A stretch of 24,537 nt of DNA from IMG/VR virus record IMGVR_UViG_3300030329_006009, positions 1 through 24,537 of that record; one strand, given 5' to 3'. The notes under the pieces were generated by a model. It did not search any database. It worked only from the letters and a program-made list of their open reading frames with translations, and was not told the DNA's origin. Both the position numbers and the translations under genes were made by a program. Positions 5,526 through 24,530 of the stretch are shown one piece after another. Source of the stretch: a virus. Each line of letters begins with the position of its first letter. The first letter of the stretch is position 1.

Positions 5526-7347
5526 TGATCACTGTAGTCGATCGTCCTACCGTGGTCATCATCTCATACGCCGCTTCGGCCTCCTCGAGGAACGTCTGCA
5601 CTTCGTCCTTGAACTTCTCCTGCGGTGTCTCCTCGGGGATCACGCCCATCTCGTCGGCGAAGTAGCTGACGGCGCCGGCCAGCGCGTCGATCCGGTCGTC
5701 GTGGTCCAGGCAGTTCTTCTCGCGGGTGATCCTGGTGAACTGCAGGATGAAGTCGTCGTCGCCGGCTACCTCCCTCGAAGTCACCAGCCGGTGGCTGGAC
5801 AGGGGCGGCTCGAGCACATCGCAGATCCGCTCCTCCTTTCGCAGCAGCTTCGTGACGTGCTGGGTGATGACCTTGCACATCCACCGACCTTGGTGCCGGT
5901 CCTTGAGGTGCTTACGCTGGTCATCCACCGCCTCGGGGCCGCTGATCTGGCCACTGGGCCGGGTGGACCGACCCTGACTGACGATCCTCTGCATGCGGGC
6001 CTCGAGGAGAGGTGCGACTGCCCCGTAGCCTCCCTCGTCCTCTACCACCGCGGTAGTGGCTCCCCACATCTTCGCGATAGCGCACAGCCGGTCCAGGGTC
6101 TTGGTGCTGTACCCGCCGTCCAGGCCGCCCACTGCTTTGATCCACAGGAACCCGTTGAGCAGTGAGACGACAGCGTACCCGGTCTTGTCCTTGCCGCGTC
6201 CCGACGGGTCGATCCACATCACCGTGTCCTGGTACTGCACCCAGTCTTCGCTGATCATCGCCGGCGCCCGGAAGCAGTCGTCGCCGAAACCGTCGCAGAC
6301 CAGGTCGTCGATGGTGGTGTCGGCCCTCTTCATCCCCGTGCTGCGCAGCCCCCACATCACGCGGAGGGGTGCGGTGTCCCGATCGATCGCATCCATCACG
6401 ATCAGGTCTTCGCAGCGTAGGGGCGCTTCGTCGATCCCCTCGTTGTGGATCAGCAGCATCTGCTGCATGTCGAAGTCGTACTCGCCCTCTGCCTTCAGTT
6501 CCTTGATCCGCGCGTCGTCGTGCCGGTGCGGGAAGACCTTGTCGCCGGGCTTGGCCGTCCCCTCGCGCATCGCCTGCATGACCGACGGCGCCGGGTTGAT
6601 CATCCGGATCCGGCCCTGGTCGTCGACCATCTGGTCGGGGTGCGGGATCAGGATCGGCCAGGTGCGGAAGACGTACTGTCGCTTCGCCAGCTTCAGGTAG
6701 AGGCTGTCGGGGTGGTGGTACGTTCCGAGGAAGATGATCTCGCGGAGGCCGAAGGAGCAGACGTGCGTGAACTCCTTCACGCGACTGGCCACCTTCAGCC
6801 GCTCCATGGGCGTGCGGGCGTTGACCTCGGTCTCGCAGTCGTCGGCCAGGATCAGGTTCGCACGGCTGCCCTCGAGCTGGCCGTTGATGCCCATGATCGT
6901 GAACGACGGTGACCGATGGCGAGGCACGCACCCGCCCACGTCGAAGTGCTTCGTGGTGTCCCGGTGCTTGATGCTCTTGTTGGGTTTGAGGTGCTTGAGG
7001 AAGGGGACGGTTTCGAACCAACCGCGGATGAGCTGCAGGGACTCGGCCGCCGCGGCGTCGGTCTTCGACACCAGCTTGATCTTCAGTTCGGGGTCGCAGT
7101 AGAACCGCCAGGCGATGTAGGCCAGGGCGAGGTACGTCTTGCCGATACCTCGAGGCGCCAGCACCCCGCGGCGGTTGCCGGTGTCCTGGCCGGCCATGAA
7201 CTTGAGGATCTCGATCTCCGGCGGCCCGATGGGCGCGACCTTGTCTGACTCGATCCACTGCCACAGCAGCAGAACGAACTTGACGACGTCGCGCTTCAGC
7301 TCCTTCTTGCTGACCCGGCGTTCAGCTCGCGAGACCGAGGTGACCAT
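5515..7347 (-). CDS. terL: Terminase large subunit, T7 gp19-like (610 aa)
   Basis: This is the ATP-driven DNA packaging motor and head-full or concatemer nuclease that docks on the portal. The ATPase domain has a Walker A-like A-P-R-G-I-G-K-T (residues 64-71) and Walker B L-I-L-A-D-D-C-E (165-172). The motif order and the R-G-I-G-K form match T7-type large terminases. The C-terminal RNase H-fold nuclease shows its acidic residues in order: D380 in I-D-P-S-G-R-G-K, E436 to E438 in V-V-E-D-E-G-G-Y-G, and D548 to D554 in D-H-D-D-R-I-D-A-L. Length is close to the ~586 residues of T7 gp19. The gene start overlaps the small-subunit gene by 26 bases. All catalytic positions look intact, so it should be functional. 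Confidence 0.95.
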   Translation of the reverse strand: MVTSVSRAERRVSKKELKRDVVKFVLLLWQWIESDKVAPIGPPEIEILKFMAGQDTGNRRGVLAPRGIGKTYLALAYIAWRFYCDPELKIKLVSKTDAAAAESLQLIRGWFETVPFLKHLKPNKSIKHRDTTKHFDVGGCVPRHRSPSFTIMGINGQLEGSRANLILADDCETEVNARTPMERLKVASRVKEFTHVCSFGLREIIFLGTYHHPDSLYLKLAKRQYVFRTWPILIPHPDQMVDDQGRIRMINPAPSVMQAMREGTAKPGDKVFPHRHDDARIKELKAEGEYDFDMQQMLLIHNEGIDEAPLRCEDLIVMDAIDRDTAPLRVMWGLRSTGMKRADTTIDDLVCDGFGDDCFRAPAMISEDWVQYQDTVMWIDPSGRGKDKTGYAVVSLLNGFLWIKAVGGLDGGYSTKTLDRLCAIAKMWGATTAVVEDEGGYGAVAPLLEARMQRIVSQGRSTRPSGQISGPEAVDDQRKHLKDRHQGRWMCKVITQHVTKLLRKEERICDVLEPPLSSHRLVTSREVAGDDDFILQFTRITREKNCLDHDDRIDALAGAVSYFADEMGVIPEETPQEKFKDEVQTFLEEAEAAYEMMTTVGRSTTVIRHR

Positions 7348-7588
7348 TTTCCGTGTCGACTCCTTCGTTCATGGTGAGGGAGTCATCTTCGTCCTCACGG
7401 TCGTGGTCACGGCCCGCCTCTTCAGGCTTGCCGTACCTGTTCGTCAGCGCAGTGACCATCGCAGCAGAAAGGGGCGGCTTCAGCGGCTCGCCGTCTTCGC
7501 CCATCTCGCCGGCCTTCACCTTGCGCAAGTGCTCGGCCATGATGGCGTCAACGTCGCTCATCAGTTTGGAGGGGCTTGTCTCACTCAT
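7322..7588 (-). CDS. terS: Terminase small subunit, T7 gp18-like (88 aa)
   Basis: The gene lies immediately before terL and has 88 codons, against 89 residues in T7 gp18. Residues ~8-25 (L-M-S-D-V-D-A-I-M-A-E-H-L) and ~38-55 (L-S-A-A-M-V-T-A-L-T-N-R-Y-G-K) form two predicted helices like those of gp18, which recognises concatemer ends and regulates the large subunit. The C-terminal third is acidic and probably flexible. No strong sequence motif exists in this family, so the call rests on size, helical pattern and position. The ATG overlaps the gp16-like stop by 8 bases, and the 3' end overlaps terL by 26 bases, so the three genes are translationally coupled. Confidence 0.75.
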   Translation of the reverse strand: MSETSPSKLMSDVDAIMAEHLRKVKAGEMGEDGEPLKPPLSAAMVTALTNRYGKPEEAGRDHDREDEDDSLTMNEGVDTENGHLGLAS

Positions 7589-10500
7589 CGGACACCGTGT
7601 TCCCCAGGACCTCGAGCAGCCCGTAGATGGGCTGGGCCCTGTTCAATGGTAGGAGGCTGGTGGCGTTCCGCCACTGTGCCGGCGTGGGGATCAGGTCACC
7701 TTCCTTCGTGAGGCTGCTGAAGCTGTGGCGGAAGATCTTGAGCAGCCTGTCGCCGCTGTCGAACGAGCTGTTGCCGATCAGGCTCTCCATGTTGTGGATG
7801 CTGCTGTTGGCCAGGCCAGATGTCCGGAAGTTGAAGATCGACTCGTCGGCGCCGGCAAACCACATCATGCTGTCGGCGATGTCGGGCATCAGGTGCGTCC
7901 AGCCTGCTCGCTGGAAGGCCACCGACGCCACCCGGCTGGGCGACAGGGCGTCCTCGAGGAACTCGGCCGGGTCTTCAGCGCTGGCCGCGGAGACGTGGCT
8001 CCAGGCCATGTGGCCCAGCGCCGCAAACGTCATCGAGAAGGATAGCTCCATGCCCGCCCGCCACGCCGATTCCCGGTCGCCCCGCTTGCCGTCCATGATC
8101 ATCGCCACGCGGCCGAGGAACTGCTTTTCGTAGGCCACCAGCGTGAACGCGCGGAACTGGGAGATGATCCGGCCGATGTCGGTGGTCATCCACTTGGTCA
8201 TGTTGCCGATGTCGTTCTCCTGCACGACCCGGTTGCTCCACAGGGTGACGGCATCGAGCAGCATGCGGGCCGCATCGATGTCCTCCGGTGCCGACCATTC
8301 GTCCATGTTCAACGCGGTGATCTTCTTGCCGAACATGCCCTCCTGCTTCGAGGCGTGCCGATCGATCGCCGCGGCGATCTGCTTGCCCTGCGCCTCGGTC
8401 AGTCCCAACTGCGCCAGCCGTGACTTGCCGATCTTGCCGCGGTTCCACGCGATGTCGGCGAACTTCTGGATGGCCAGGGCGGCCACCATCCGCTGCTGTG
8501 CGACGTGGATGGGCGCCATCAGGGACAGGGCGCCTTGGGCGCGGGCGACCTTGCGGAAGGCCTCGTTCACCCGGGCGCCTTCCTTGTAGACGTCGGTGAG
8601 CATGGCCTCTTCGATGTCGGTGCGCGGCACGACGTTGCTGTTCTTCCACGCCACGCCTTGCACGAAGATCGTTTCGATCTCCTGCAGGAGCTGGTTGCTC
8701 ATCTTCCCGTCTTTGGCCCTCGACCAGATCTGCGCGAAGGCGGGCATCTGCCGGGCAATGGCGCCGATGCCGGCCGAACCCAGCAGTGCACCGAACTCGG
8801 GCACCTGCGCGATGCCGAACTGTCCGCCCACGCGGAGGTAGTTGTACAGACGCAGGTTGGCCATGAAGTTCGACCAGTCGTTGTCGGGCCAGATGGGCTT
8901 GCCCTGCACGCTGTTCATGAGGATCGAGATCTTCTTCATGTCCCGGTTGATCGCGGTCTCTTTCATTCCCGCATCAACCATCTGCCGGCGCAGGTAGGTC
9001 TCCAGATCGATCGGCTGCGTGAACTGCACCGCACGGCCACCGCCGTGGTGGTGGCTCACCGCGCGGCCCATCTCCTGCAGGACCTCGCTCATCGCCATGG
9101 CGCCGGTCATCTGCCTCGAGTAGGTCTGCATCAACGCGCGGGCGTCGTTCTCCAGCAGGTCCTCGATGGACAGGCCGTCGTCCAGTGCCGCCTTCTCGTT
9201 CAGTGCATTGCGGTGGCGCAGCCGACTGGTCAGCGGCCGCTGCTCGTGCGCCGGGGCGACCAGGCGCATGATCTCGTCGACCTCCGCCTTGGTCATCAGC
9301 TTTTCGCCGGTGACCGAGTCGGTGGCCTCGTCCATGGCCACGCGCATGAAGTCCTTCGCCTCGCCGGCAACGATCTGGGCTCGCTCGAAGTCCGTGTACT
9401 TCTTGCTGTTGACCAGGACCGTGACGATGCCCTTGGCCCACTTCTTCGCCACCGTTTCGGTCAGGTCGTCGTGCTGGGTGATCAGTGCCTTTTCGAACAG
9501 CTCGTGCAGGCGGGTGGTGCCGCCTTCGGCCCGGGCGATCTTGTGGATCTGCGACATCCGGTAGATGCGCGGGACGTAGGTGCGGGTGGCCTCGATCAGC
9601 TCCGAACCGCGGACACCGTGGGCCTTGGCCCTCTCGATGACGTCCTCGGTGATGGTGCGCATGGCGTCGACCACGGCGCGGACGTTGGGGTCCTTCGCGT
9701 CGGTGTGATCGCGCATGGCCTTCGTGACAGTCTCGAAGAACTCACGCTGCTTCTGAATGTTGAACGACCGGCGAACGCCCTGCGCCTTGGCCCACCGCCG
9801 CCACGCCGGGTTGGCCACGGACCAGAAGGCGGCCATGTACCGGTGGTGCTCGCGTGAGCCCCAGAGACTGGCAGTGAGGCGCTGCACGCCGCGGATGGGC
9901 ACGGCGTCCTGGGCGAGCACACCCATCAGGCCACGCACCGCCGGCACAACGTGGCTGGCCAACTGCCCCACCATCGAGATACGCGCGGGCCCGAACCGGC
10001 CCTGGCGGGTGAAGTCGGCCATGCCCTCGGCGTCGAAGTCGATCATCTTCTTCGCCGGTCGGGGTACCTCCTTGCGGTTCTTGATCTGCTCGCGTACCCG
10101 TTCGAACTCACGCCGGATGGCCGCGTCTTCGAGCCCTTCTGCCAGGAGCCGGTTGTACAGTTGCTTGGTGGGCTGACCGAGCCGCCGGCCGTTGTTCATC
10201 AACTGCCACGGCGCGAAGATCCGCGGTGCGTCGACACCTGGCAGTTTCAGGGCGAAGGCCCCGGCGTCCTGGCCCACCAGCTCCCCCTTCATCTGGAAGT
10301 AGGGGCTGAACTGGTCGGAGATCATCAGCTCGGTGCCACTGCCCGGCTGGTTGGGCACGCCGATGGTCAGGGGCGGGTCGACGTCGGCGTCCTGGGCCAT
10401 GAGCACCAGGCCCTCGCGCTCGGCGCGGCGCTTGAGGGAGGAGATCTCGCGATGGATCTCGCCCAGCCTGTCGGTGGTGCCCTCCCGGGGGAGTCCTGAG

Positions 10501-14535: not shown

Positions 14536-15071
14536 GACGTAACCATGGGGCCGAGGGACGTGTGGCTGGGCATGCCGCCACCCCCGGATCCGGTCGGATC
14601 AGCCGTCGGCGGCCCGCCGCCCATGCCCATGGCCGAGCCCATGGACGCGCCTGCCTGGGCTCCGGTCATGGCGCCACTGATCGCGGACATGGCTGGGGCC
14701 TGGGTTTGGGTCTGTAGACTGGCGATTCTGGCCTGCGTGGTGAAGAGCTGGTTGGCGCCCTGTGCGGCGGTGTTCACCGCTTGGATGACGTTGTTCATGA
14801 CGGTGTCGAAGTCAATCTGGGCCAGCAGACCCATCTCAGTGCGCCCGGCCGACTGGGACCGGTTGCGGATGGCGCCCTCGATGCGCTGCTGCCGCCGGTT
14901 GGCGATCTCACGGTTGATCCTCGCCCGGTGTGCGATGTTCCTGCGGGCCTGCTGGAGCCGCTGGATCTCGATGTCCTGGGCGTCGCGGATGGCCTCGTTG
15001 TTCAGCAGGGCGCCGTAGTAGCCGAGCCCTGCACCTATCACGGCTCCGGCGCCCGTCGCAAACGCAGACAT
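14532..15071 (-). CDS. Internal virion protein B, T7 gp14-like (179 aa)
   Basis: At 179 residues it is close to T7 gp14 (196 aa), the ejection protein that forms the outer-membrane part of the DNA channel. The N-terminus (residues 3-24) is a glycine-patterned hydrophobic segment, G-A-G-A-V-I-G-A-G-L-G-Y-Y-G, typical of gp14-type proteins. It is followed by a Q/R-rich helix (residues ~28-75) and an A/Q-rich region. The tail (residues ~127-179) is Gly/Met/Pro-rich and probably disordered. A strong AGGAG lies 7 bases before the ATG. The upstream stop and this start overlap as TAATG, and the downstream junction is ATGA, so the gene is fully coupled to its neighbours. Confidence 0.8.
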   Translation of the reverse strand: MSAFATGAGAVIGAGLGYYGALLNNEAIRDAQDIEIQRLQQARRNIAHRARINREIANRRQQRIEGAIRNRSQSAGRTEMGLLAQIDFDTVMNNVIQAVNTAAQGANQLFTTQARIASLQTQTQAPAMSAISGAMTGAQAGASMGSAMGMGGGPPTADPTGSGGGGMPSHTSLGPMVTS

Positions 15072-15649
15072 TAGGTGTCTCCTGCTCGGGACCAGTCCGC
15101 TTCGAACTCAGCGCTGACGATCGTGCACGGTCCCGGGCCAGGTGCCTCGACCCTGACCGTGACATCGGTGTTCCGCGTGTTGACGTTGATCTTCGATCTG
15201 CCGCTCTCTTCGATTCCCGCCACTCCAGGGCCGTTGAACTCTTTGGAGTAGTTCGTGCGGCTGCTCTGGTTGAACTTGGACTGCAGGGCGTAAAACCTGG
15301 TGTTGTGGTGGCGGACGCTGCAGTTGCGGAGCTGCACTCGCCCACGACTGACGGCCAATCCGCTGTCGTCCCTGATATAGGGGTGAGACAGATCTAGCTG
15401 TGGCGTGGGCATCAGCTTGCCGACGATGCAGCATCCGGCGGTGTAGTTGCCGTTGACGAAGACGAAGGTGCCGGCGTTGGCCGCGCGGAGGAATATACCC
15501 TCGTTAGCCCCGAACTCGGCGTCGGCCAGGACGACCACGTCCACCTCGGTGTCACGGTGCGGCAGGGTCCAGATCGTGATGTCGCCGCTCTGTACCCCCA
15601 GAAGGGGTACATGGCGATCGATCCGTGGGATACGGCTCCAGTAGGGCAT
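15071..15649 (-). CDS. C-terminal piece of split tail tubular protein B, T7 gp12-like (192 aa)
   Basis: The whole protein aligns by eye with the last ~200 residues of T7-type tail tubular protein B. The matching blocks are P-R-I-D-R-H-V, the W-T-L-P segment, the beta-rich middle ending in Y-I-R-D-D-S-G, the G-R-V-Q-L-R-N block (T7 has G-R-L-Q-L-R-R), and the closing N-T-D-V-T-V-R-V and E-F-E-A-D-W-S-R region. In T7 these parts are continuous with the central domain that here is encoded separately at 18044-20212. The start at ATG 15649 overlaps the upstream DUF115-like gene by 98 bases in another frame, and homology begins almost at the start codon. It may associate with the other two pieces to form the nozzle. 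Confidence 0.75.
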   Translation of the reverse strand: MPYWSRIPRIDRHVPLLGVQSGDITIWTLPHRDTEVDVVVLADAEFGANEGIFLRAANAGTFVFVNGNYTAGCCIVGKLMPTPQLDLSHPYIRDDSGLAVSRGRVQLRNCSVRHHNTRFYALQSKFNQSSRTNYSKEFNGPGVAGIEESGRSKINVNTRNTDVTVRVEAPGPGPCTIVSAEFEADWSRAGDT

Positions 15650-16658
15650 CGCGCTCGGCCTCAGCGTGGGCTACTGCTTCAGTGTAGGGCATACGGGCGA
15701 ACGCTGTCAGCCTGGAGGCCGGGTTGCAGTTGAAGATCCGCAGGCCGTGGGCCTCGAGCATGGGCCGGATCTGCTTGAACCGGGCCTGGATGAGCTTGTA
15801 GGAGTGGTTGTTCATCCGGGCGTGCGCCTCGGTGCAGGTCCGCTGCGCCGCGTAGGCGTTCTTGGGGTCCATGTGCAAGTCACAGCCCAGCAGGAAGATC
15901 CGCCGGGCTCCCATCTCGTAGAGCAGCCGCACCGCGATGAACATGACACTGGCCCCCCAGACGATGTGCGGGCTGGTGAAGTAGCGGGCCCAGTCCCAGC
16001 CGCGGCGGTGGTGGTAGGGGATGACGCTGCCGTGGGGGACGAGGTGGTCGCAGGAGGCGGGGACGAACTTGGTTGTGTCCGACTGCCAGAACAGCCCCGG
16101 CAGGCCGTGGCTCATAGGGTTGTCGATACAGAGCCAGTAGTCGGGGTGAAACCGAGCCGCCGTGTTGTTCACCCCCATGGTCTGCAGGTCCACGAGGGGC
16201 ACCAGATCAAGCTCTCCCAAGCTCGGCCCCCCGCAGAGTAGGAAGACGGTGTGGTCGGCCAGTTGCGGTAGGCCGGGGATGTCCAGGGGGACCGTCGTCT
16301 TGCCGGCGCCGCGCTCGCCGCGCCACTTGCCGGCCCGGCAGCCCTCGTCCTTCCACGCGGGGATGGGGCAGCCCTGACAGTCGTTCAGGAGGCAGTTGGA
16401 GTAGAAGGTGTTCAGCGCGCCCTTGAACTGGTTGCACCTCTCACAGGTGGACAGGTTCAGGGCTGCTCGACGTGCAAGGGTTGCCGTGACACGCGGGCGG
16501 GGGCGGGGGACGGCGCGCTCGTCCCGTTCTCCGGGCTGTCGACTACTGCATCCCCGGCAAACTCCGAAGGAGGGGAAGCCGCCGGCGACGCCTTCGGTGC
16601 AGTGCCCGCCGCCTTTGAAGTCGGACGGTCGCCAGAACCGGCAGTCAGGCCTCTCCAT
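15552..16658 (-). CDS. DUF115/MAF-like protein with Cys-rich N-terminus (368 aa)
   Basis: The core (residues ~135-340) matches the DUF115 (MAF/MptE-like) fold common in phages. It has H-T-V-F-L-L-C-G-G-P-S-L, then G-V-N-N-T-A with H-P-D-Y-W-L-C-I-D, and later G-A-S-V-M-F-I-A-V-R-L-L-Y-E-M-G-A-R-R-I-F-L. After these come L-L-G-C-D-L and F-N-C-N-P-A-S-R-L-T-A-F. Relatives are linked to glycosyl or pyrophosphoryl transfer (flagellin glycosylation factors, pterin pyrophosphokinase). The N-terminal ~107 residues carry ten Cys including three C-x2-C pairs, suggesting a metal site. The first ~67 codons overlap the upstream gene. No ATG, GTG or TTG replaces the start at 16658 without losing the Cys region. 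The last 98 bases overlap the gp12 C-piece. The product may modify a virion or envelope component. Confidence 0.7.
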   Translation of the reverse strand: MERPDCRFWRPSDFKGGGHCTEGVAGGFPSFGVCRGCSSRQPGERDERAVPRPRPRVTATLARRAALNLSTCERCNQFKGALNTFYSNCLLNDCQGCPIPAWKDEGCRAGKWRGERGAGKTTVPLDIPGLPQLADHTVFLLCGGPSLGELDLVPLVDLQTMGVNNTAARFHPDYWLCIDNPMSHGLPGLFWQSDTTKFVPASCDHLVPHGSVIPYHHRRGWDWARYFTSPHIVWGASVMFIAVRLLYEMGARRIFLLGCDLHMDPKNAYAAQRTCTEAHARMNNHSYKLIQARFKQIRPMLEAHGLRIFNCNPASRLTAFARMPYTEAVAHAEAERDALLEPYPTDRSPCTPSGGTERRHHDLDPAAP

Positions 16659-17296
16659 AATCGTGGCACCATGATGGGTTCGGGTAGGTGGTTGAAGATC
16701 GACGCGGTCATCGAGGAACTGCCAAAGCACAGATTGCGGAGGAGGCCTTTGACGAAGGTCAGGTTGTCGTGGGTCATGTTGACCTGGTAGTCGTCGCAGT
16801 TGTCGTGCCCGATCTTCTTCCCGTCTTCATCCAACAGCAGCGGGTGCCAGCAGGTCCGCGGGTGGGACAGGTGGAACATGCGGGCGATCTCCAAGTCCCT
16901 GCCACTGATCTCGCCCATGTTCATGTGCGAGCCGGAGTGACCGGCGTCGTGGGCGCGGGCGACGAATCGCACGTTGTGCCCTGACAGCCAGACGACCTTC
17001 CGCACGTTGGCGCTTTCGGTGGCGCTGTAGGAGGCCATGTGCTTGGCCTGCGACCGGAGGCTGGTGCCTCCTATGAAGAAGACCTCGACTTCGGGTCCGG
17101 CCGGGTCTACGGATCTGGCAAGATCGACGTAGGCTTCTTCGTACTCCCCTCGCCTGATCTCGCAGTCGAAGAACACCGCGAACCGTTTGTAGAACTCACT
17201 GCCCGCCTTCTCCATCAGCTCCATCGTCACCATCAGGTTCAGGACGTGGCCGAGGTGAGGTGGGCCGGCGCAGTTCGGCATGAAGACGAAGGTCAT
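16457..17296 (-). CDS. Minimal class-I aminoacyl-tRNA-synthetase-like nucleotidyltransferase (279 aa)
   Basis: Residues ~12-17 read P-P-H-L-G-H, a HIGH-type ATP-binding signature in the right N-terminal position after a beta strand (T-F-V-F-M-P-N). About 145 residues later, L-L-L-D-E-D-G-K-K-I-G-H-D fits the place and flanks of the KMSKS loop of Glx-type synthetases, which read L-L-L-D-E-D-G-K-K-L-S-K. The preceding I-S-G-R-D-L-E-I-A matches their conserved G-x-D-L segment. There is no anticodon-binding domain, so the size resembles stand-alone paralogues such as GluQ-RS. The degenerate KMSKS (I-G-H-D) makes true tRNA charging uncertain. Activation of an amino acid or another acid for transfer to a different acceptor is possible. 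The last ~75 residues are Pro/Ala/Ser-rich and overlap the next gene. The start at 17296 gives an ATGA junction; 17302 is the alternative. Confidence 0.65.
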   Translation of the reverse strand: MTFVFMPNCAGPPHLGHVLNLMVTMELMEKAGSEFYKRFAVFFDCEIRRGEYEEAYVDLARSVDPAGPEVEVFFIGGTSLRSQAKHMASYSATESANVRKVVWLSGHNVRFVARAHDAGHSGSHMNMGEISGRDLEIARMFHLSHPRTCWHPLLLDEDGKKIGHDNCDDYQVNMTHDNLTFVKGLLRNLCFGSSSMTASIFNHLPEPIMVPRLWRGLTAGSGDRPTSKAAGTAPKASPAASPPSEFAGDAVVDSPENGTSAPSPAPARVSRQPLHVEQP

Positions 17297-18033
17297 ATCC
17301 ATTCCGGGTCCACCTGTTCAGAGTAGAGGTTGGGCTGTTCGACGATGGTGTCGATGCCGACCCTGGGCATCTTGGACGGCATGTTGCTGCAGACACCTCC
17401 CTTGAACCACACCTTCAGGCACGACAGGTGGCTGCCCCGCTGGAACCCTCGTGGCCCGCCCAGCCCGCTCCATGTGTTGTCCAGCGGCGCCAGCCAGTCG
17501 GTCAGCGCGTCGGGCGTCACCCCCCACTGCTCCCGCGGGTTCATGTCCATCAGGCAGGTGCGGTGTGACGGCACGCTCTGCCCCAGTGCGTACCGGGCGA
17601 GCTGATGACCGCAGAGCACGAACACCGGCGTCTGGTTCTCGAGGAGCTGGTCACGGATCTCTTGGTCCTGTAGGTCCCGCATCATGTGGATGTGGATCAG
17701 GGGGCAGCAGAAGCGCAGCCGCCAGTCACGACACAGGGCGTGCCATTCCTGGATGTGCCGGCCGGGCGACCATTCACCGTTGGGGTCGGTGCCCAGTGAC
17801 ACGTTGGTGCCGGCGCCGTAGACGTCGAAGACCGCACGCAGTTGATCTTGGTCCTTGAACTGGAACCCCAGGACGAACAGCTTCCCCTCGGTCCAGCATC
17901 GCGTGCGCAGAGGCTCCGCCCACGAAGGCTGGGCGCCTTTGATGCAGTTGACGTACACGCCGTCGTGCAGGTCTTCGATGTCGGGAGGGTCGGGGGTGCG
18001 TTCCGTCAGAGTGACGAAGTTGAGCAGTTTCAT
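17293..18033 (-). CDS. Hypothetical protein (246 aa), first gene of the cassette inside split gp12
   Basis: I do not recognise this protein. AGGGG stands 7 bases before the ATG. It looks like a globular cytoplasmic protein: N-terminal strand K-L-L-N-F-V-T-L, a central D-V-Y-G-A-G-T-N segment with D-P-N-G-E-W-S-P-G-R-H, then C-C-P-L-I-H-I-H-M-M and P-V-F-V-L-C-G-H-Q-L-A-R. It ends with a Trp/Gly-rich region. The alternation of strands and helices, with conserved-looking Gly, His and Cys, suggests an enzyme of Rossmann-like type, but no signature is decisive. It is coupled by an ATGA junction to the synthetase-like gene, implying joint function. The gene begins 10 bases after the stop of the gp12 central piece. 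Confidence 0.65.
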   Translation of the reverse strand: MKLLNFVTLTERTPDPPDIEDLHDGVYVNCIKGAQPSWAEPLRTRCWTEGKLFVLGFQFKDQDQLRAVFDVYGAGTNVSLGTDPNGEWSPGRHIQEWHALCRDWRLRFCCPLIHIHMMRDLQDQEIRDQLLENQTPVFVLCGHQLARYALGQSVPSHRTCLMDMNPREQWGVTPDALTDWLAPLDNTWSGLGGPRGFQRGSHLSCLKVWFKGGVCSNMPSKMPRVGIDTIVEQPNLYSEQVDPEWI

Positions 18034-18043
18034 TGTCGGGCCC

Positions 18044-20212
18044 CTATGAGCACGACAGTATCGGCAGGGCCTGTCCCCCTGTCAAATCGACGTCCCCTAT
18101 GAGGTGCGCGAGGTTGATCTTCTCTAGGATCCTGACCCCCTCCCGGGTGTCGTTGATCAACAGGAACAGTTCGTCACCGATGACGTCTATGTCGTCGATC
18201 AGTTGGGTACTGTCGATGGACAGCGGCCCCCAGGCGATCTGGACTCGGTCGTCGCTCTGGATGAACTGCGTGTAGGCCCAGATGGCGGAGCTGTTCGCGG
18301 GCAGGACGAAGATCATTCCACCATCTGGGTAGACCGCCAGTCCCTTGATGTCCGCCGGAAGTGATTGGAGGATGTGCTTGCTGACGTTGTCCGCGCGGCT
18401 GGAGACACTACTCTCACTGAACCGGTAGCTGAACAGGGCCGACCGATCACCCATGGGCACGGTGAAGAAGGCGTGGTCGTGCATGCGCACGGGGCGCACG
18501 TTCGGGGTGGTGCCGTACTCGGTCGCCGGTGAATACTGTGGTGTCTCGGTGGCACTAATCTGTCCGCTGATCTGGAACTGCCGGCCGGCAAGCGTGAAGA
18601 CCATCAGGCTGTCGCGGTAGGGCACCATGAAGTCGGTAAGCGTGACCTGGCTGGTCGAGAGCACCACGTCCACCGGGTCGGACTCCACCACGTTGTTGGC
18701 ATCGCCGTTGAAGAAGTTGAACAGGTCGCCAGACTGCGAGAAGGACACCGTCTCGCCAGCGGAGACAGCCAAGCGGTTCTGATAGAAGGCAATGTCCGAC
18801 AGCGTCTGTTGCTTCGGCGTTCCGTTGCTATGGACCATGATGCCCGGCGGTGGGTTGGTGGTTGCGTTTCCGCTGAGGCGGTCCTTCCAATCGATCAGGT
18901 CCAGTTCGAAGATCAGCGTCGGGTTGCGCTGCGTGCGCGTCAGCTTCACCGGCATGGTCGTGGCGTCGAGCCGGGCGTTGGTCTCGCTGGGCGCTGACAC
19001 CTTTATCCATCGATCGGCGATGGCCTCTTTATCGCTGGTGGGCGACCCTGTTCCGGCGCTGGCCGTGCCCATGCTGAAGTTGAACACACCGTTGGCGCCG
19101 GTGCTGCGGTCTCCATGTCCACCGGTGTGCGGCGAGTGGATGCCGATGACCGTGGTGTTCGAGCCGCGGAAGGGCGACACGATGGCCGGCCCGCTGACGC
19201 TGTCGTCCCAGTAGACGATGGCCTCCTCGAGTCCGCTGTTGCTGCGAAGGGATGTCTGGAATCGCTCCATCACGTCGTCGATGTCGATGGCCGCGGTGGT
19301 GTTGAAGTTGGCGGTGGCCTCCCCGCTGACTGTGTAGGCGCTGGCGTCCACGTTGCCGACCTGATCGCCGCCGCTGTAGTCGCTTCTGACGTCGCCAGTG
19401 GTGTAGTAGCGCGTGTCGGCGCTGCTGGTTCCCTGCGTGAGCAGGATAGTGTTGTTATCCACCCGGTTGCTGATCGGGTAGTAGCCCTCTGGAAGTCCGT
19501 CGGTGATGTAGATCTCGTCTCCCGACTGGAAGGTGTAGTTGGTGAACGCACCGGCGAGGGTAAGGGCCCTATTGCCGTCGGCGTGCCCCACTGCATCGAA
19601 CGTGGCGTTGCTGATCGACACGCTGGCATTGCGCTTGAACCGAACGCGGAACCCCTGCGGGTTCTTCCCTGAGTCGTCCCATGCGTTGGTGGGTTGCTGC
19701 CACTGGCCGATGACACTGCCCCGGTCCCACCTGGCCCATCCGTTGGACGCGCCGTCCACGACGTATTGGTGGAAGCCGGCGATGTTCGGGCCGTCGTCTA
19801 CGGTGGTCTCGAAGTATTGGTCGGGCATCGGCACCCTCGATGCCATCTTCGTGTAGGTGTCGAAGACGCGGGTGACGGCGTAAGACTCTGTCAGGTCCTC
19901 AAGCGTCGCCTTGGCCAAGGTGTTGAGGATGACGGTGGTGTCTCCCACGGATGCGGCCCTCATCTCGTTGGCCGATGGGTTGCCCGACGCCAAGTAGTTC
20001 GTCGCGTCGGTGGTGGCGTTGATGATCGCTTGGTTGCCGTTCGTGGCGTCGTACACGCGGATGTCGCCGCGGCCCAGGACGACCAGGTACTTCTCGTCGC
20101 CGTCTCGGTGGATAGGGTGTGTGCGAACGTCGTAGGCCTCGGTGGGGTTGTCCGGGGCCTGCGGCATTGCAGCCGCTGTCGGGGCTGCGCAAATTGGGGA
20201 GCCAGCGATCAT
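18044..20212 (-). CDS. Central piece of split tail tubular protein B, T7 gp12-like (722 aa)
   Basis: The protein matches T7-type gp12 from about residue 60 to 560 of T7. Matching blocks are I-H-R-D-G-D-E-K-Y-L-V-V-L with D-I-R-V-Y-D, then I-A-F-Y-Q-N-R-L-A-V-S-A-G-E-T-V (T7 has V-F-F-F-R-N-R-L-G-F-L-S-G-E-N), F-N-F-F-N-G-D, and D-P-V-D-V-V-L-S-T-S. The usual N-terminal G-G-I-S-x-Q-P segment and the C-terminal ~200 residues are absent. They lie in separate genes at 21466-22107 and 15071-15649. Residues ~196-272 hold an inserted module shared with the 22117-23016 protein. The start at 20212 overlaps the upstream stop as ATGA and is preferred to 20230. The product forms the tail nozzle. Confidence 0.85.
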   Translation of the reverse strand: MIAGSPICAAPTAAAMPQAPDNPTEAYDVRTHPIHRDGDEKYLVVLGRGDIRVYDATNGNQAIINATTDATNYLASGNPSANEMRAASVGDTTVILNTLAKATLEDLTESYAVTRVFDTYTKMASRVPMPDQYFETTVDDGPNIAGFHQYVVDGASNGWARWDRGSVIGQWQQPTNAWDDSGKNPQGFRVRFKRNASVSISNATFDAVGHADGNRALTLAGAFTNYTFQSGDEIYITDGLPEGYYPISNRVDNNTILLTQGTSSADTRYYTTGDVRSDYSGGDQVGNVDASAYTVSGEATANFNTTAAIDIDDVMERFQTSLRSNSGLEEAIVYWDDSVSGPAIVSPFRGSNTTVIGIHSPHTGGHGDRSTGANGVFNFSMGTASAGTGSPTSDKEAIADRWIKVSAPSETNARLDATTMPVKLTRTQRNPTLIFELDLIDWKDRLSGNATTNPPPGIMVHSNGTPKQQTLSDIAFYQNRLAVSAGETVSFSQSGDLFNFFNGDANNVVESDPVDVVLSTSQVTLTDFMVPYRDSLMVFTLAGRQFQISGQISATETPQYSPATEYGTTPNVRPVRMHDHAFFTVPMGDRSALFSYRFSESSVSSRADNVSKHILQSLPADIKGLAVYPDGGMIFVLPANSSAIWAYTQFIQSDDRVQIAWGPLSIDSTQLIDDIDVIGDELFLLINDTREGVRILEKINLAHLIGDVDLTGGQALPILSCS

Positions 20213-20823
20213 GTGTTCAGAACAATCCATTCAGACCCGGTGCAGATGATCTTGACGTAGTCGTAGGTCGCCGCTGCCATAGCTAGTGTGGCGGAACCAT
20301 TGATGGTCTCGGATCCATTGCCGTCGAGGGTGACAACAGAGCTGCCGCTGACGATCACAAACTCCAGCTCCACCCCCTCGAGGCCAGACACCGCCGGAAG
20401 CGTGATGGTATAGACACCGCCGGCGGTGAGGAAGTAGGTGGTGCTGACCGACGCTGCGGTGATGGCGCCGTTGGCGGTCTGGGTGTTCTTCCGTGCTAGG
20501 GCGACGTCTCTAGCTGTGAGGACGTTCATCACGGTTTTTATGCCGCTGCTGAAGTTGACCAGCGAGTTACTGTTGCTGCTGGCGATGACGGTTACGCGAG
20601 AGAGGGTGTCCTGCACAGCGTCGGTTATAACGCCTTCGCCGATCTCCCACTCGTTCTTTACCTGGTGGTGGATGAAGTAAGACACCGTCTTGCCGGTGGC
20701 GATGCCAGAGGCGATGAACCCTTGGCGGTGGATCGGGATGGTGTCATCCAGCGTGATAGTGCCCGTGCCGACCGTGGTGCTGGTCTGCTGGACGACCTCG
20801 CCGAAGTGCAGTTCAGTGGACAT
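20209..20823 (-). CDS. Tail-fibre/structural-type protein (204 aa)
   Basis: The N-terminal ~100 residues have the pattern widespread in phage tail and fibre proteins: T-T-V-G-T-G-T-I-T-L-D near the start, a Y-F-I-H-H-Q segment with E-W-E-I-G-E-G, then D-T-L-S-R-V-T-V-I-A-S-S-N-S-N-S-L-V-N-F-S-S-G. The C-terminal ~90 residues are beta-rich (Y-T-I-T-L-P, V-T-L-D-G-N-G-S-E-T-I-N-G) and end G-S-E-W-I-V-L-N, like many phage receptor-binding or fibre-tip domains. It is therefore probably a virion surface protein. It lies between two pieces of gp12, which suits a nozzle-attached role. AGGAG precedes the ATG, and the stop is fused to the central gp12 start as ATGA. Confidence 0.7.
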   Translation of the reverse strand: MSTELHFGEVVQQTSTTVGTGTITLDDTIPIHRQGFIASGIATGKTVSYFIHHQVKNEWEIGEGVITDAVQDTLSRVTVIASSNSNSLVNFSSGIKTVMNVLTARDVALARKNTQTANGAITAASVSTTYFLTAGGVYTITLPAVSGLEGVELEFVIVSGSSVVTLDGNGSETINGSATLAMAAATYDYVKIICTGSEWIVLNT

Positions 20824-20831
20824 GTCTGCTC

Positions 20832-21287
20832 CTAATCGAACATGGAGACCGTGACCGCGGCGTCACCGGTCCCGTCTGCGACGACGCGGCTGGCCTCGAT
20901 CTGCACGATGTCGTTGTAGTCTGTGTTGTCGACCAGTGCGGCGCCGTCGAACTTCGTGGCGGCGCCCACGCCGATGTTGTACCCGTGCAAGAACATCGGG
21001 ACGTTTGCGAGCACTTGGTGCAGGAAGAAGTTGGGCGTGCCGGCGTCGTCCTTCAACTCCACCCAGATGTCCTTCGTGGAGGTGATGATGGCCAAGGTAA
21101 ACGTGTCCTTCCCTCCGTCGCCGGTGGCCCAGAGCACGTCCTTTCCGAAGGCGTCGGGGATGGTGTGAACGGCAATGTGCGGTTCGACGGTGTTCAGGGA
21201 GATGGCCAGTGGGTTGAGCACTTCACCCTGACCGCGGTAGGAGGTGTTGAGGATCTCCCAGAAGTGGTGAAGGTTTAGTGTGCCCAT
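20832..21287 (-). CDS. Hypothetical structural-type protein (151 aa)
   Basis: The start at ATG 21287 forms a TGATG junction with the upstream stop and has GAGGAA just upstream. The longer frame beginning at 21368 is an unsupported extension with a different, Arg/Pro-rich composition. The protein begins with an aromatic segment (L-N-L-H-H-F-W-E-I-L). It continues as a mostly beta pattern rich in G, D, T and V, including F-T-L-A-I-I-T-S-T-K-D-I-W-V-E-L, and closes with an alternating V-V/T-V strand. No catalytic motif is visible. Its place within the tail gene block suggests a minor virion protein. I do not recognise the family. Confidence 0.6.
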   Translation of the reverse strand: MGTLNLHHFWEILNTSYRGQGEVLNPLAISLNTVEPHIAVHTIPDAFGKDVLWATGDGGKDTFTLAIITSTKDIWVELKDDAGTPNFFLHQVLANVPMFLHGYNIGVGAATKFDGAALVDNTDYNDIVQIEASRVVADGTGDAAVTVSMFD

Positions 21288-21466
21288 CAGGTTCCTCGCT
21301 TCCGGATGAAGATGATCGTCTGGTGGTAGGCGCTGTTGGCGAAGTACGACTCGCCGATCGGGCTCCATCCCTCCTTGATCTTCTCCTGGACTTCATCCAC
21401 CAAGCTAGATGCGCTGGCGTTGTCCAGGATGTCGTAGTTCATGATGTCCCGCGGGTCAGTTTCCAT
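21287..21466 (-). CDS. Small DUF1737-like protein (59 aa)
   Basis: The product has the shape of DUF1737-type small proteins: Y-D-I-L at the start of a strand, then a helix (S-S-L-V-D-E-V-Q-E-K-I-K), the characteristic E-G-W-S-P-I-G turn, and a final beta strand Y-H-Q-T-I-I-F-I-R-K. These proteins are widespread in bacteria and phages and have no settled function. The preferred start is the ATG at 21466, joined to the upstream stop as TGATG. A GTG directly before it would add one residue. The stop is joined to the next gene in the same way. It sits between two gp12 pieces and is not obviously a virion protein. Confidence 0.6.
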   Translation of the reverse strand: METDPRDIMNYDILDNASASSLVDEVQEKIKEGWSPIGESYFANSAYHQTIIFIRKRGT

Positions 21467-22107
21467 CACGACGCTCTCACGTTCGACATCGTCAGTATAT
21501 GCCCCCCGGCGGCACCGAAGGCTTCCGGGTCACTGAAACTTGCTCCGCTGTTCGGATTGGCGCCCGTCGCGCTGATTGACATCCCGTACAGGTTCGGTGT
21601 CACCGGGTCGGCGGTGGCCGGCACGAACAGGACCGACACCACCCAGTAGCGCTGCCGGGTGTCCAGTCCGAGGAAAACGTAGGGCGTGAGGGTGCTGATC
21701 ACCGACCCGGTGCCCGACCACTGGCATTTGTTGGTGAGCTGGTTGACCGTGGTGGTCACACCGGTGTGACTGATCGCCTTGCCGTCGGGGTCCGTACCGG
21801 TCAGGTTGTAGATGACGGCGTAGCTCGAGGCGTGATCCGCGGACACGCAGGCGATGGGCGCCGTGCCCAGTGCTCCCACCGGGTCGGCGCTGTTGGGGGT
21901 CGAGCCCAGCGGGGACGCGGCGTCGGGCATGTCCAGCACGCGAGACACCAGTTGCGTCCCCGGTCGAACCGTGGCGCCGATGGCGGCGTCGAACATGAAG
22001 TTGACGCTGGAGGCTACCTGGCTGGCGTGGCGAAGATGCGCGGGCTGATCGCTGATCCCCCCACTCAGGATCGGGAGCTTGATCGATAGCTTTCTTGCCT
22101 TGCCCAT
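21466..22107 (-). CDS. N-terminal piece of split tail tubular protein B, T7 gp12-like (213 aa)
   Basis: Residues ~14-58 match the opening of T7-type tail tubular protein B: L-S-G-G-I-S-D-Q-P-A-H-L-R (T7 has L-K-G-G-I-S-Q-Q-P-D-I-L-R), then Q-V-A-S-S-V-N and G-A-T-V-R-P-G-T. Residues ~80-110 (A-P-I-A-C-V-S-A-D-H-A-S-S-Y-A-V-I-Y) resemble the next gp12 strand, which is also present in the central piece at 18044-20212. This piece may therefore overlap that one slightly as a partial duplicate. The last ~100 residues are beta-rich and not recognised. The gene sits directly after the gp11-like pair, exactly where gp12 starts in T7, which supports the identity. It probably contributes the nozzle's N-terminal arm. 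Confidence 0.7.
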   Translation of the reverse strand: MGKARKLSIKLPILSGGISDQPAHLRHASQVASSVNFMFDAAIGATVRPGTQLVSRVLDMPDAASPLGSTPNSADPVGALGTAPIACVSADHASSYAVIYNLTGTDPDGKAISHTGVTTTVNQLTNKCQWSGTGSVISTLTPYVFLGLDTRQRYWVVSVLFVPATADPVTPNLYGMSISATGANPNSGASFSDPEAFGAAGGHILTMSNVRAS

Positions 22108-22116
22108 GCAGCCACT

Positions 22117-23016
22117 CTACCGCCTTTGATCGCCGCCCTGGTTCGGGATAGCGCCCAGGATGGGGTTTATAGCACCGAACGGCTGCACCTCGTTATGCGT
22201 CTGTATGGGGTTGCGTTGCATCTGCGCCTCGAGGAGCTGGATCTCCTGGAAGAGCATGGCCTCACGCTGCGGGTCGTCGTTCTTCCACCGCTGGAACTCG
22301 AGCCGTCCGTAGGCGGTGAGTCGCTCCTTCAGTGTCGGACTGATCTCCGCGAACAGCGTCTGGGTCAGGCCGTGGCTCCGCGTGACATCGAGCGTGACCA
22401 GGTCGTCGTTTTCCATCCGCTCGGTGAGGCGACCTTGGTCGACCAGGACGTCGGCGCTGCCGAGCTGCAGGTTGCGGTAGGAGTCCCGGCCCGCGGAACG
22501 CACGCGGAGGATGTCCGAGGAAAGGGTAACCTTCAGGTCACCGACCTTCCTCGCGGCGATGCGGGTGTTGTCGGAAACGGCTGGGGCGTGGTTGAGCGTG
22601 ATGCTGTTGGCGTTCGTCCTGCCGGCGACGACGTAGTAGCCCTCCTTGATCAGGGAGTCACCGGTGTCGCTGTAGATGTAGATCTCATCGGCAGCGTTGT
22701 GGGCGTAGTCGGCGAACGCGGCGGTCTTCGTGAGTGTGCGCGTGGAGGCGGTGTAGGTTCCGTCGGTGAAGGCCACCGACACACTGGTGGCACTGGCGGC
22801 ACCGCCGGCGCCGTCGGGCTGGTACTGCTTGCCGAAGTCGGTGTACTCGGGGTACCCGACGATCTGCAGTTTGTGCACGAGGCGCAGCAGGATGGCCCAG
22901 GCGTCCCACGCATCACTTCCGTCGTTGGTGGTGGGTACCGAGCTGACCGGTCCTTCACCGATCGCGCGGAGCATGTCGTTGACGCAGTCAAGTAGGCTCG
23001 GTCCAAGATTGGCCAT
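22117..23016 (-). CDS. Tail tubular protein A, T7 gp11-like, with inserted domain (299 aa)
   Basis: Residues 7-55 match T7 gp11 well: C-V-N-D-M-L-R-A-I-G-E-G-P-V-S-S-V (T7 has A-V-N-D-I-L-A-S-I-G-E-P-P-V-S-T-L), then the helix ending V-G-Y-P-E-Y-T-D-F. The usual family length is ~196 residues. The extra ~80 are an inserted module at about 78-155 with D-E-I-Y-I, K-E-G-Y-Y and N-S-I-T-L, which also occurs in the gp12 central piece. After it come the remaining gp11 parts, including a helical segment (L-K-E-R-L-T-A-Y-G-R-L-E-F) and a Gln-rich tail. The product is the gatekeeper/adaptor ring between portal and nozzle. The gene starts four bases after the preceding stop. Confidence 0.85.
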   Translation of the reverse strand: MANLGPSLLDCVNDMLRAIGEGPVSSVPTTNDGSDAWDAWAILLRLVHKLQIVGYPEYTDFGKQYQPDGAGGAASATSVSVAFTDGTYTASTRTLTKTAAFADYAHNAADEIYIYSDTGDSLIKEGYYVVAGRTNANSITLNHAPAVSDNTRIAARKVGDLKVTLSSDILRVRSAGRDSYRNLQLGSADVLVDQGRLTERMENDDLVTLDVTRSHGLTQTLFAEISPTLKERLTAYGRLEFQRWKNDDPQREAMLFQEIQLLEAQMQRNPIQTHNEVQPFGAINPILGAIPNQGGDQRR

Positions 23017-23019
23017 GAC

Positions 23020-23685
23020 TCAGTTCCAAGAGGCGGTGCGGTGCATCGTGGTGCGCCCACGAATCGCCCGGGCGCCCTGTGTCTCGAGCATGTTGGCCCG
23101 GGGAGTGTTGGTGTTCTCGGCGGTGACCTTCGCCTGCGCCCAGTTCTCCATGATGGCGTTGCGGATGGTGGCGTTGGTCTGTCGGTTCTTCACCTTGCTG
23201 CTTCGGACGTTTGCCCAGTAGCTCTTCGCCGCATCCCAAGTGATGTACTCCTGCATGGCCGGAGTCAGGCTGTCGAAGGACAGGCCGATGATGCGGGTGA
23301 CCCTGATCTTTCCGTCGAACACGCTCTCCCACGGTGAGCCGTCGGTGATCGACACGTCTCGGTGGTACAGCTTGTCGCCTCGCAGTTCGATCGACAGGAT
23401 GCTTTCCGAGGAGTAGGTGCTGGTGGCCCGCACATCCAATATTTTTGTGCCGTTGGGCAGACCGACCAGCAGTTCGGCCATGCCGATCTCTCCGCTGGTG
23501 GCGTGAGGCTCGAGGGTGACCTGGTCCTCTCTGGTGGTGGGCAAGCCCTTCATAGCCAGCCGGCGCTGGGCCTCGTCGAGGTATCTCGAGGCGAGCTGGT
23601 CGCCACTGGCGTCGCCGTTGGACGAACGGGTGGGCGCCTCGCCGGTGGCCTGTCGCAATGTCATGAGAGACTCGATGCGGGTCAT
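23020..23685 (-). CDS. Second gp11-like tail tubular protein A paralogue (221 aa)
   Basis: The ATG at 23685 overlaps the upstream stop as ATGA and is preferred to the frame extension to 23724. Residues 1-50 follow the gp11 plan: a helix with L-R-Q-A-T-G-E-A-P, then A-S-R-Y-L-D-E-A-Q-R-R-L-A-M-K-G-L-P-T-T, corresponding to the N-R-I-L-x-K-x-x-x-x-I-Q-x-x-G-W-x-x-N region. A beta-rich middle (I-L-D-V-R-A-T, L-Y-H-R-D) leads to L-T-P-A-M-Q-E-Y-I-T-W-D-A-A-K-S-Y-W, which fits the T7 segment M-P-E-C-F-R-Y-W-I-V-T-K-A-S-R-Q-F. Length is close to gp11. Two gp11-like proteins in tandem suggest a hetero-ring or a two-layer adaptor. Confidence 0.75.
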   Translation of the reverse strand: MTRIESLMTLRQATGEAPTRSSNGDASGDQLASRYLDEAQRRLAMKGLPTTREDQVTLEPHATSGEIGMAELLVGLPNGTKILDVRATSTYSSESILSIELRGDKLYHRDVSITDGSPWESVFDGKIRVTRIIGLSFDSLTPAMQEYITWDAAKSYWANVRSSKVKNRQTNATIRNAIMENWAQAKVTAENTNTPRANMLETQGARAIRGRTTMHRTASWN

Positions 23686-24530
23686 ATCTCTTGATGGTAC
23701 TCCCTGTGACGTAGCGGGGCCCATATGTCGTTCTGAACGCGGACGAAGTCGTCATCGTCCAAGGCCCTCGACCAGACCAGGACAGGTCCGAGCAGCCCGT
23801 CGCAACCGCGTGAGCCTGTCGCCCCGCGGAACGCGCCGAATCCGTGGACGGAGTTGTTGCCGTTATTGCCGGGCGACGCCGTGGCCGCAGAGCTGCGCTT
23901 CTCGCGAAGGACACCGTTGGTCCAGAACTCAGGCTTGTGGTCGCTGGACCATCGCCCCCCGACCGATCGCCACTTGCCCGACGTCGACCCTGTCGCGTTG
24001 CCGCCAGAGCTGGTGTAGTTTGAGTTCATGCGGAAGAACATGCCGTGCCGATTGCCTTCCGCGGTGTTGTTGTTCCCGTTGAGATTGAACCCGCCATCCC
24101 CGCCGCCATCGACGTCGTGTACCCTCCCGTAGATGGAGTTGTCGTTTCCGGTGACGTCGTTGGGCTTCTGCAGTCCGACCACCGTGCAGAACTTGAAGTT
24201 CAGGACGTACTGCCCGGACTGCACGTCGTCGTAGGCCGCGCCCGGTGCGCCCCACTGCGCGCAGTCCACCAGGGACCCGTCGCCAACTGCTTTGCCGGCG
24301 GACAGATCCAGGCAGGCGCCGTAGGGCTCGTCCCTGACCCAGTTGCCCACGGCCAGGCCATTGATGAAGTAGGCGTGCCTCTTGTGCGGCCCGAAGTCAC
24401 GGATGATCGTGCCGCCGGGGGCCAGCGGTGGGTACCAAGCAAACTCCAAGCCTTTCCAGAGCTGTGGGTACAGCGCCAGCGTCTCGTTCTCAGCAACGAT
24501 GTCACCTTGGCTTATGTTGTCGGACTTCAT
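23682..24530 (-). CDS. LamG/concanavalin-like lectin-fold virion protein (282 aa)
   Basis: Residues ~24-70 read G-L-E-F-A-W-Y-P-P-L, D-F-G-P-H-K-R-H-A-Y-F-I-N-G and L-D-L-S-A-G, the opening pattern of phage and bacterial concanavalin/LamG-like jelly-roll domains (W-x-P-L, S-G-N-x-x-x-x-L, L-x-F-D-G). The end, G-P-V-L-V-W-S-R-A-L-D-D-D-D-F, matches their typical closing strand, followed by A-P-L-R-H-R as in many phage copies. Such domains bind carbohydrates, so an adhesion or capsid-decoration role is likely. Residues ~140-200 are Gly/Asn-rich. It lies next to the gp11-like pair. The upstream gene is outside the window, so the promoter and ribosome-binding site cannot be judged, and only seven bases precede the ATG. 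Confidence 0.7.
   Translation of the reverse strand: MKSDNISQGDIVAENETLALYPQLWKGLEFAWYPPLAPGGTIIRDFGPHKRHAYFINGLAVGNWVRDEPYGACLDLSAGKAVGDGSLVDCAQWGAPGAAYDDVQSGQYVLNFKFCTVVGLQKPNDVTGNDNSIYGRVHDVDGGGDGGFNLNGNNNTAEGNRHGMFFRMNSNYTSSGGNATGSTSGKWRSVGGRWSSDHKPEFWTNGVLREKRSSAATASPGNNGNNSVHGFGAFRGATGSRGCDGLLGPVLVWSRALDDDDFVRVQNDIWAPLRHREYHQEI

Follow-up and report, generated by a model that had tools for sequence, protein, structure and literature searches.

Our analysis of the window, 24537 bases that make up an entire IMG/VR virus record whose completeness class is unknown, revealed a T7-like late operon on the minus strand. The operon comprises a laminin-G-like gene, followed by two homologues of the adaptor gp11, a first nozzle piece (w1), three small genes and a second nozzle piece (w2), and continues with three genes, a third nozzle piece (w3), a 179-residue protein, an 849-residue protein, a gp16 homologue, a small gene and the large terminase (Table 1). 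The 179-residue and 849-residue proteins occupy the places of gp14 and gp15, respectively, and are putatively labelled as such by position only. Known relatives of the terminase share at best about 35% identity with it, and the phage therefore represents a deep, isolated lineage.

Table 1. Positions of the adaptor, nozzle and inserted genes of the window, in operon order, and of two-gene nozzles in other viral records.
Feature	Record	Position	Strand	Description
Laminin-G/concanavalin-like protein	window	23682-24530	-	below Pfam cut-off
First adaptor (gp11) paralogue	window	23020..23724	-	upstream partner; PF17212 1.3e-9; profile 1-161 of 175
Second adaptor (gp11) paralogue	window	22117..23016	-	PF17212 1.8e-5; profile 4-84; inserted domain also in w2
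w1, nozzle piece 1	window	21466..22107	-	213 aa; residues 9-61 = T7 gp12 6-58, N-terminal platform strands
Insert 1, DUF1737 protein	window	21287..21469	-	60 aa; PF08410 2.5e-5
Insert 1, 178-aa protein	window	20832..21368	-	no PHROGs/Pfam family
Insert 1, 204-aa protein, possibly tail-fibre-like	window	20209..20823	-	tblastn: partial hits to one protein annotated as tail fibre and one as baseplate wedge
w2, nozzle piece 2	window	18044..20230	-	728 aa; = T7 gp12 about 61-598, whole seven-bladed propeller
Insert 2, 246-aa protein	window	17293..18033	-	no relatives found
Insert 2, 281-aa protein	window	16457..17302	-	no relatives found
Insert 2, MptE / alpha-2,3-sialyltransferase-like protein	window	15552..16730	-	phrog_4603 4.1e-10; MptE-like 0.003, below cut-off
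w3, nozzle piece 3	window	15071..15649	-	192 aa; = T7 gp12 about 600-793, fibre dock and C-terminal platform
Two-gene nozzle	L210	5396-5881 + 5881-7698		stop/start overlap
Two-gene nozzle	L201	5390-5878 + 5881-7197		
Two-gene nozzle	L209	2556-3044 + 3047-4692		

The sequence-only reading had proposed that gp12, the nozzle protein at the tail tip through which DNA is ejected, is split into three genes in this region, and profile searches of each piece assigned all three to the nozzle family. The hmmscan matches of w1, w2 and w3 to PF25675 (Phage_nozzle; E-values 1.2e-6, 2.9e-59 and 2.7e-9, with 27.5, 201.5 and 36.3 bits, all above the curated cut-off of 27 bits) and to phrog_457 (1.7e-8, 1.7e-56 and 3.1e-11) are collinear and do not overlap. 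The limits of the pieces were fixed with a nozzle profile built here from 64 relatives, in which residues 9-61 of w1 match positions 6-58 (1e-10), residues 32-116 and 404-708 of w2 match positions 59-140 (7e-17) and 283-574 (5e-61), and residues 21-185 of w3 match positions 604-777 (2e-18). Expressed in T7 numbers, the profile match of w1 ends at 58, that of w2 spans 61-579 (reaching 598 by structure) and that of w3 starts at 610, so the order of T7 ranges proposed earlier holds, with the first piece covering 1-58 rather than 1-80 and the middle piece extending to about 598 rather than 560. The pieces w1 and w2 adjoin at T7 58/61 without overlap, and the profile loses little or nothing at 574-604, between w2 and w3. 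The full set of nozzle domains is encoded but spread over three proteins, with a diverged insert in place of profile positions of about 140-283, the nozzle tip. Instead of a single chain of about 800 residues, the record carries open reading frames of 213, 728 and 192 aa that lie about 1.2 and 2.4 kb apart, and a six-frame search of its 24.5 kb returned the three pieces alone, with neither a full-length gp12 nor any further nozzle copy.

Two of the pieces carry additional sequence. The insert of w2 (residues 116-404) is enlarged and diverged and takes the position of the nozzle tip, and w2 as a whole is a diverged nozzle; its reading frame has two possible starts, at 20230 (728 aa) or at 20212. 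In residues 62-213 of w1 no nozzle similarity was detectable with the profile, 200 shuffles of this tail reaching at most 0.7 bits, and the region forms a new domain without detectable relatives. A similarity of the w1 tail to the first propeller strand, suggested by a MAFFT alignment, was dropped, the profile score of the tail being no higher than that of the shuffles. The motif TNYSKEFN of w3 (window 15230-15260) was also seen in an unrelated phage protein (L005, 2125-2310); this 60-residue match was judged to be due to chance, as L005 lacks a nozzle match and its gene content is unrelated, and L005 was rejected as a relative of w3.

The predicted structures agree with the profile assignments. 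The AlphaFold2 model of w3 (pLDDT 83.8) returned phage tail-complex chains at all of the Foldseek ranks 1-15, T7 gp12 among them and most of them nozzles by length and title, and its comparison with T7 gp12 gave a Z of 11.8. Together with the profile matches of both w1 and w3, this identifies the outer pieces as related to gp12. In the model of w2, pLDDT is mostly 75-97 at residues 35-115 and 420-710 and below 50 in the insert; its propeller matches T7 gp12 with a Z of about 28, and the models of w2 and w3 cover complementary ranges of that protein. In the T7 nozzle, the N-terminal 45 residues supply three strands of the platform barrel, after which the chain runs through a seven-bladed propeller, the fibre dock and the remaining part of the platform; the nozzle tip is inserted in propeller blade 3, closure of the propeller relies on its own first strand, which lies in blade 1, and the propeller end is connected to the platform by the fibre dock (PMC6702177). 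Since this layout puts the two cuts at the entry and exit of the propeller, both are inter-domain, and by the T7 domain order w1 and w3 together represent the platform and the fibre dock, and w2 the closed propeller. In three dimensions both cuts fall at one place, the point of chain entry to and exit from the propeller, and their positions are as expected for fission that leaves foldable parts.

Each of the three pieces has its own start and stop and an intact frame, and a positive coding score was obtained for each in its own frame only. The GC3 of the pieces (0.81-0.85) and their codon preferences match those of the neighbouring genes. The starts were earlier described as coupled, which is broadly true: w1 starts 9 nt past the previous gene, and w2 and w3 overlap the preceding genes by 22 nt and 98 nt. 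Strongly conserved columns, defined as those conserved in at least 85% of relatives, are kept at 11 of 13 positions in w1, 6 of 10 in w3 and 44 of 76 in w2, several of the losses in w2 lying within the replaced insert. Decay would strike the outer pieces hardest; as these keep conserved columns no worse than w2, the data speak against decay, as had been argued from the intact frames, and a relic nature of the pieces seems disfavoured.

The first gap encodes a DUF1737 protein, a protein without an assigned family and a 204-aa protein whose partial matches weakly suggest a tail-fibre-like nature. The second gap is made up of three moron-like genes. By eye, PPHLGH and DEDGKKIGH in the 281-aa protein resemble the class I aminoacyl-tRNA synthetase motifs HIGH and KMSKS; no supporting profile or structure-sequence match was found for this idea. 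The MptE/sialyltransferase-like gene runs 98 nt into the start of w3 (15552-15649) in a different frame, as if its own end had been lost at insertion. No homing endonuclease family was found among the inserted genes with PHROGs and Pfam. Among relatives, extra genes lie directly after gp12 in S-SRP02 (an acetyltransferase) and in phiA014S (a kinase), and hence the region around gp12 is a site where cassettes settle.

The three-way split was absent from the relatives listed. Nozzle matches occurred in 22 of 41 viral records picked by terminase similarity and, among the matches listed, lay in a single frame wherever the gene was complete. Out of 80 viral loci picked by gp12 similarity, again among the matches listed, 66 carry the full-length gene in one frame, 10 are cut off by the contig end and 4 are otherwise incomplete by profile, and the nozzle is a single gene in all 7 loci from bacterial genome assemblies; as the sample was chosen by similarity from listed matches, these counts are not a true frequency. 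Searching viral contigs with single proteins (w2, TerL and w3) or with the propeller core uncovered no true relative, a TerL motif pattern gave no hits, and no close relative with the same split was found. An alignment of nine gp12 sequences was too diverse for scanning. Of the 4 loci incomplete by profile, L201 is split, the pieces of L154 overlap in two frames inside one gene, which more likely reflects a sequencing frameshift, and the seemingly truncated nozzles of L176 and L198 are shorter yet complete genes. Long nozzle genes in one frame were seen in the records of L021 (G004) and L067 (G028), which have about 1258 and 1266 codons, including large in-frame inserts.

A nozzle in two genes was found in L201, L209 and L210, where the cut falls within the propeller, at the position of the nozzle tip (profile 147 and 233 on its two sides). 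The 42.5 kb record of L210 contains no full-length nozzle gene. The second nozzle pieces of L201 and L210 are 83% identical, and the two-gene split is thus conserved; the phages jiawei and S2B, related to this group, have the nozzle in one gene. This split, in an unrelated lineage, is independent of the three-gene split. In view of these two-gene nozzles, multi-chain nozzles seem viable. After the truncated nozzle gene of L201, near the contig end, a reading frame resembling transposase OrfA by eye (7237-7650) was noted, which is either an insertion or a mis-join.

Three chains probably make up the nozzle of this phage, as a hexamer of heterotrimers, and we infer that the three pieces are expressed, assemble together and function. 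An ancestral single gp12 gene would have been interrupted twice by gene cassettes, which would have entered at two linkers, the chain entry and exit of the beta-propeller. The piece w1 would supply the N-terminal strands of the platform, and w3 the fibre dock and the remainder of the platform jelly-roll, so that the two would complete one barrel by strand complementation beneath the adaptor ring. The self-contained propeller of w2, with the nozzle tip, would dock on this barrel without a covalent link and would still provide the DNA-holding gates. Against the three-chain nozzle it may be held that it derives from a single incomplete metagenomic record, that the scans yielded no close relative sharing the split and that w2 is diverged.

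Other explanations were weighed against the same data. A complete nozzle gene could lie in genome sequence absent from the record or in a helper, the three pieces being relics or having other roles in the virion; T7-like genomes measure around 40 kb, and a record of only 24.5 kb with an unknown completeness class leaves room for such a gene. We nevertheless consider this very unlikely, as the pieces are found at the usual place of gp12, between the gp11 homologues and the internal virion proteins, with intact frames, a normal codon signal and conserved residues kept in the outer pieces. Still a little less probable is a nozzle that uses the split genes only in part, for example one of w2 and w3 with w1 as a separate tail protein. 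The large new domain of 150 residues in w1, next to only 53 residues of nozzle homology, would fit such a division of roles, but w1 keeps most of its strongly conserved nozzle columns, and w3 does not contain the N-terminal strands that the T7 platform needs (PMC6702177).

An assembly chimera that joined foreign cassettes into gp12 would be conceivable for one metagenomic contig, and an assembly error had been named early as a possible flaw. It would require two independent insertions exactly at domain linkers and on the same strand, and no sign of a chimera was found: the genes share one strand, spacing at the junctions is tight (-22, 9, 10 and -98 nt), codon signal and GC3 are uniform, and no convincing repeat flanks the insertion borders to account for a mis-join. 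A chimera is therefore slightly more improbable than partial use. That the cuts remove hardly any residue could also point to pieces rejoined after transcription or translation into one normal chain, by an intron, a split intein or ribosome bypass. This we regard as the least probable explanation of all, because no Rfam match up to E 1 was found in the window, no intein or other extra family was detected on the pieces with Pfam and PHROGs, and the gaps consist of kilobases of protein-coding genes between pieces with their own starts and stops.

The three-chain nozzle can be compared with several known systems. T7 gp12 (PF25675; structure 6r21) is alike in its domains and their order, in the predicted folds of w2 and w3 and in its genomic position, with gp11 on one side and the internal virion proteins on the other, but is encoded by one gene of 794 codons instead of three genes with others between them, and has neither the extra domain of w1 nor the enlarged insert at the nozzle-tip place of w2. 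The nozzles of L201, L209 and L210 are likewise split into intact, closely coupled genes, with the difference that a single cut lies inside the propeller and no cassette separates the genes. Phage genes in pieces have been described for nrdA of Aeh1, gene 43 of phage 25 and gene 60 of T4, in each of which a continuous coding region is split into separate chains, and reassembly to a working enzyme has been reported for split nrdA and gene 43 (PMC2988022). That these two can function in pieces counts in favour of a three-chain nozzle. In contrast to the symmetric virion part considered here, these systems are enzymes with one cut, at which homing endonucleases or untranslated sequence are found instead of several ordinary genes. 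The SU10 nozzle also has platform halves at both chain ends with the propeller between them, is encoded by a single gene and shows no detectable sequence similarity to the T7 nozzle (PMC9509320). Split phage genes are thus already known; for a split nozzle, including one in three parts, we found no report in the literature searched, in line with the earlier statement that no described three-way split of this protein was known.

The nozzle is the gate that keeps pressurised DNA in the virion, and its opening in T7 is thought to move whole propellers. A natural separation of propeller and platform would show that this gate can do without covalent links between them. For T7, circular permutation or domain insertion has been put forward to account for the two platform halves lying at either end of the chain, and the separation offers a way to test this idea. 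Taken with the two-gene nozzles, the separation suggests that the tail nozzle tolerates fission.

The adaptor is duplicated as well, both tandem gp11 homologues scoring above the Pfam cut-off. Each of 39 related records apparently has one adaptor gene; in one of them two adaptor matches lie at opposite ends of the record, likely a single gene that these ends divide. A domain of about 75 aa, at residues 203-272 in the insert of w2, recurs at residues 80-149 of the second gp11 homologue with 32% identity (1e-6) and is also seen as a DNA repeat (72% over 50 nt, window 19505-19554 and 22675-22724). A nozzle of this family is a hexamer seated beneath a dodecamer of gp11, and the gp11 homologues of the window are encoded right beside the nozzle pieces. 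The gp11 subunits of T7 adopt two alternating conformations under the nozzle (PMC6702177), and one may speculate that the two gp11 copies alternate in the adaptor ring. A tail machine with more chains throughout, combining three-chain nozzle subunits (18 chains), a propeller gate held non-covalently and a ring of two alternating gp11 paralogues matching the T7 conformations, is a tentative picture that we consider rather unlikely in its entirety. Directly upstream of the first gp11 homologue, the laminin-G/concanavalin-like protein may possibly serve as a decoration or adhesin.
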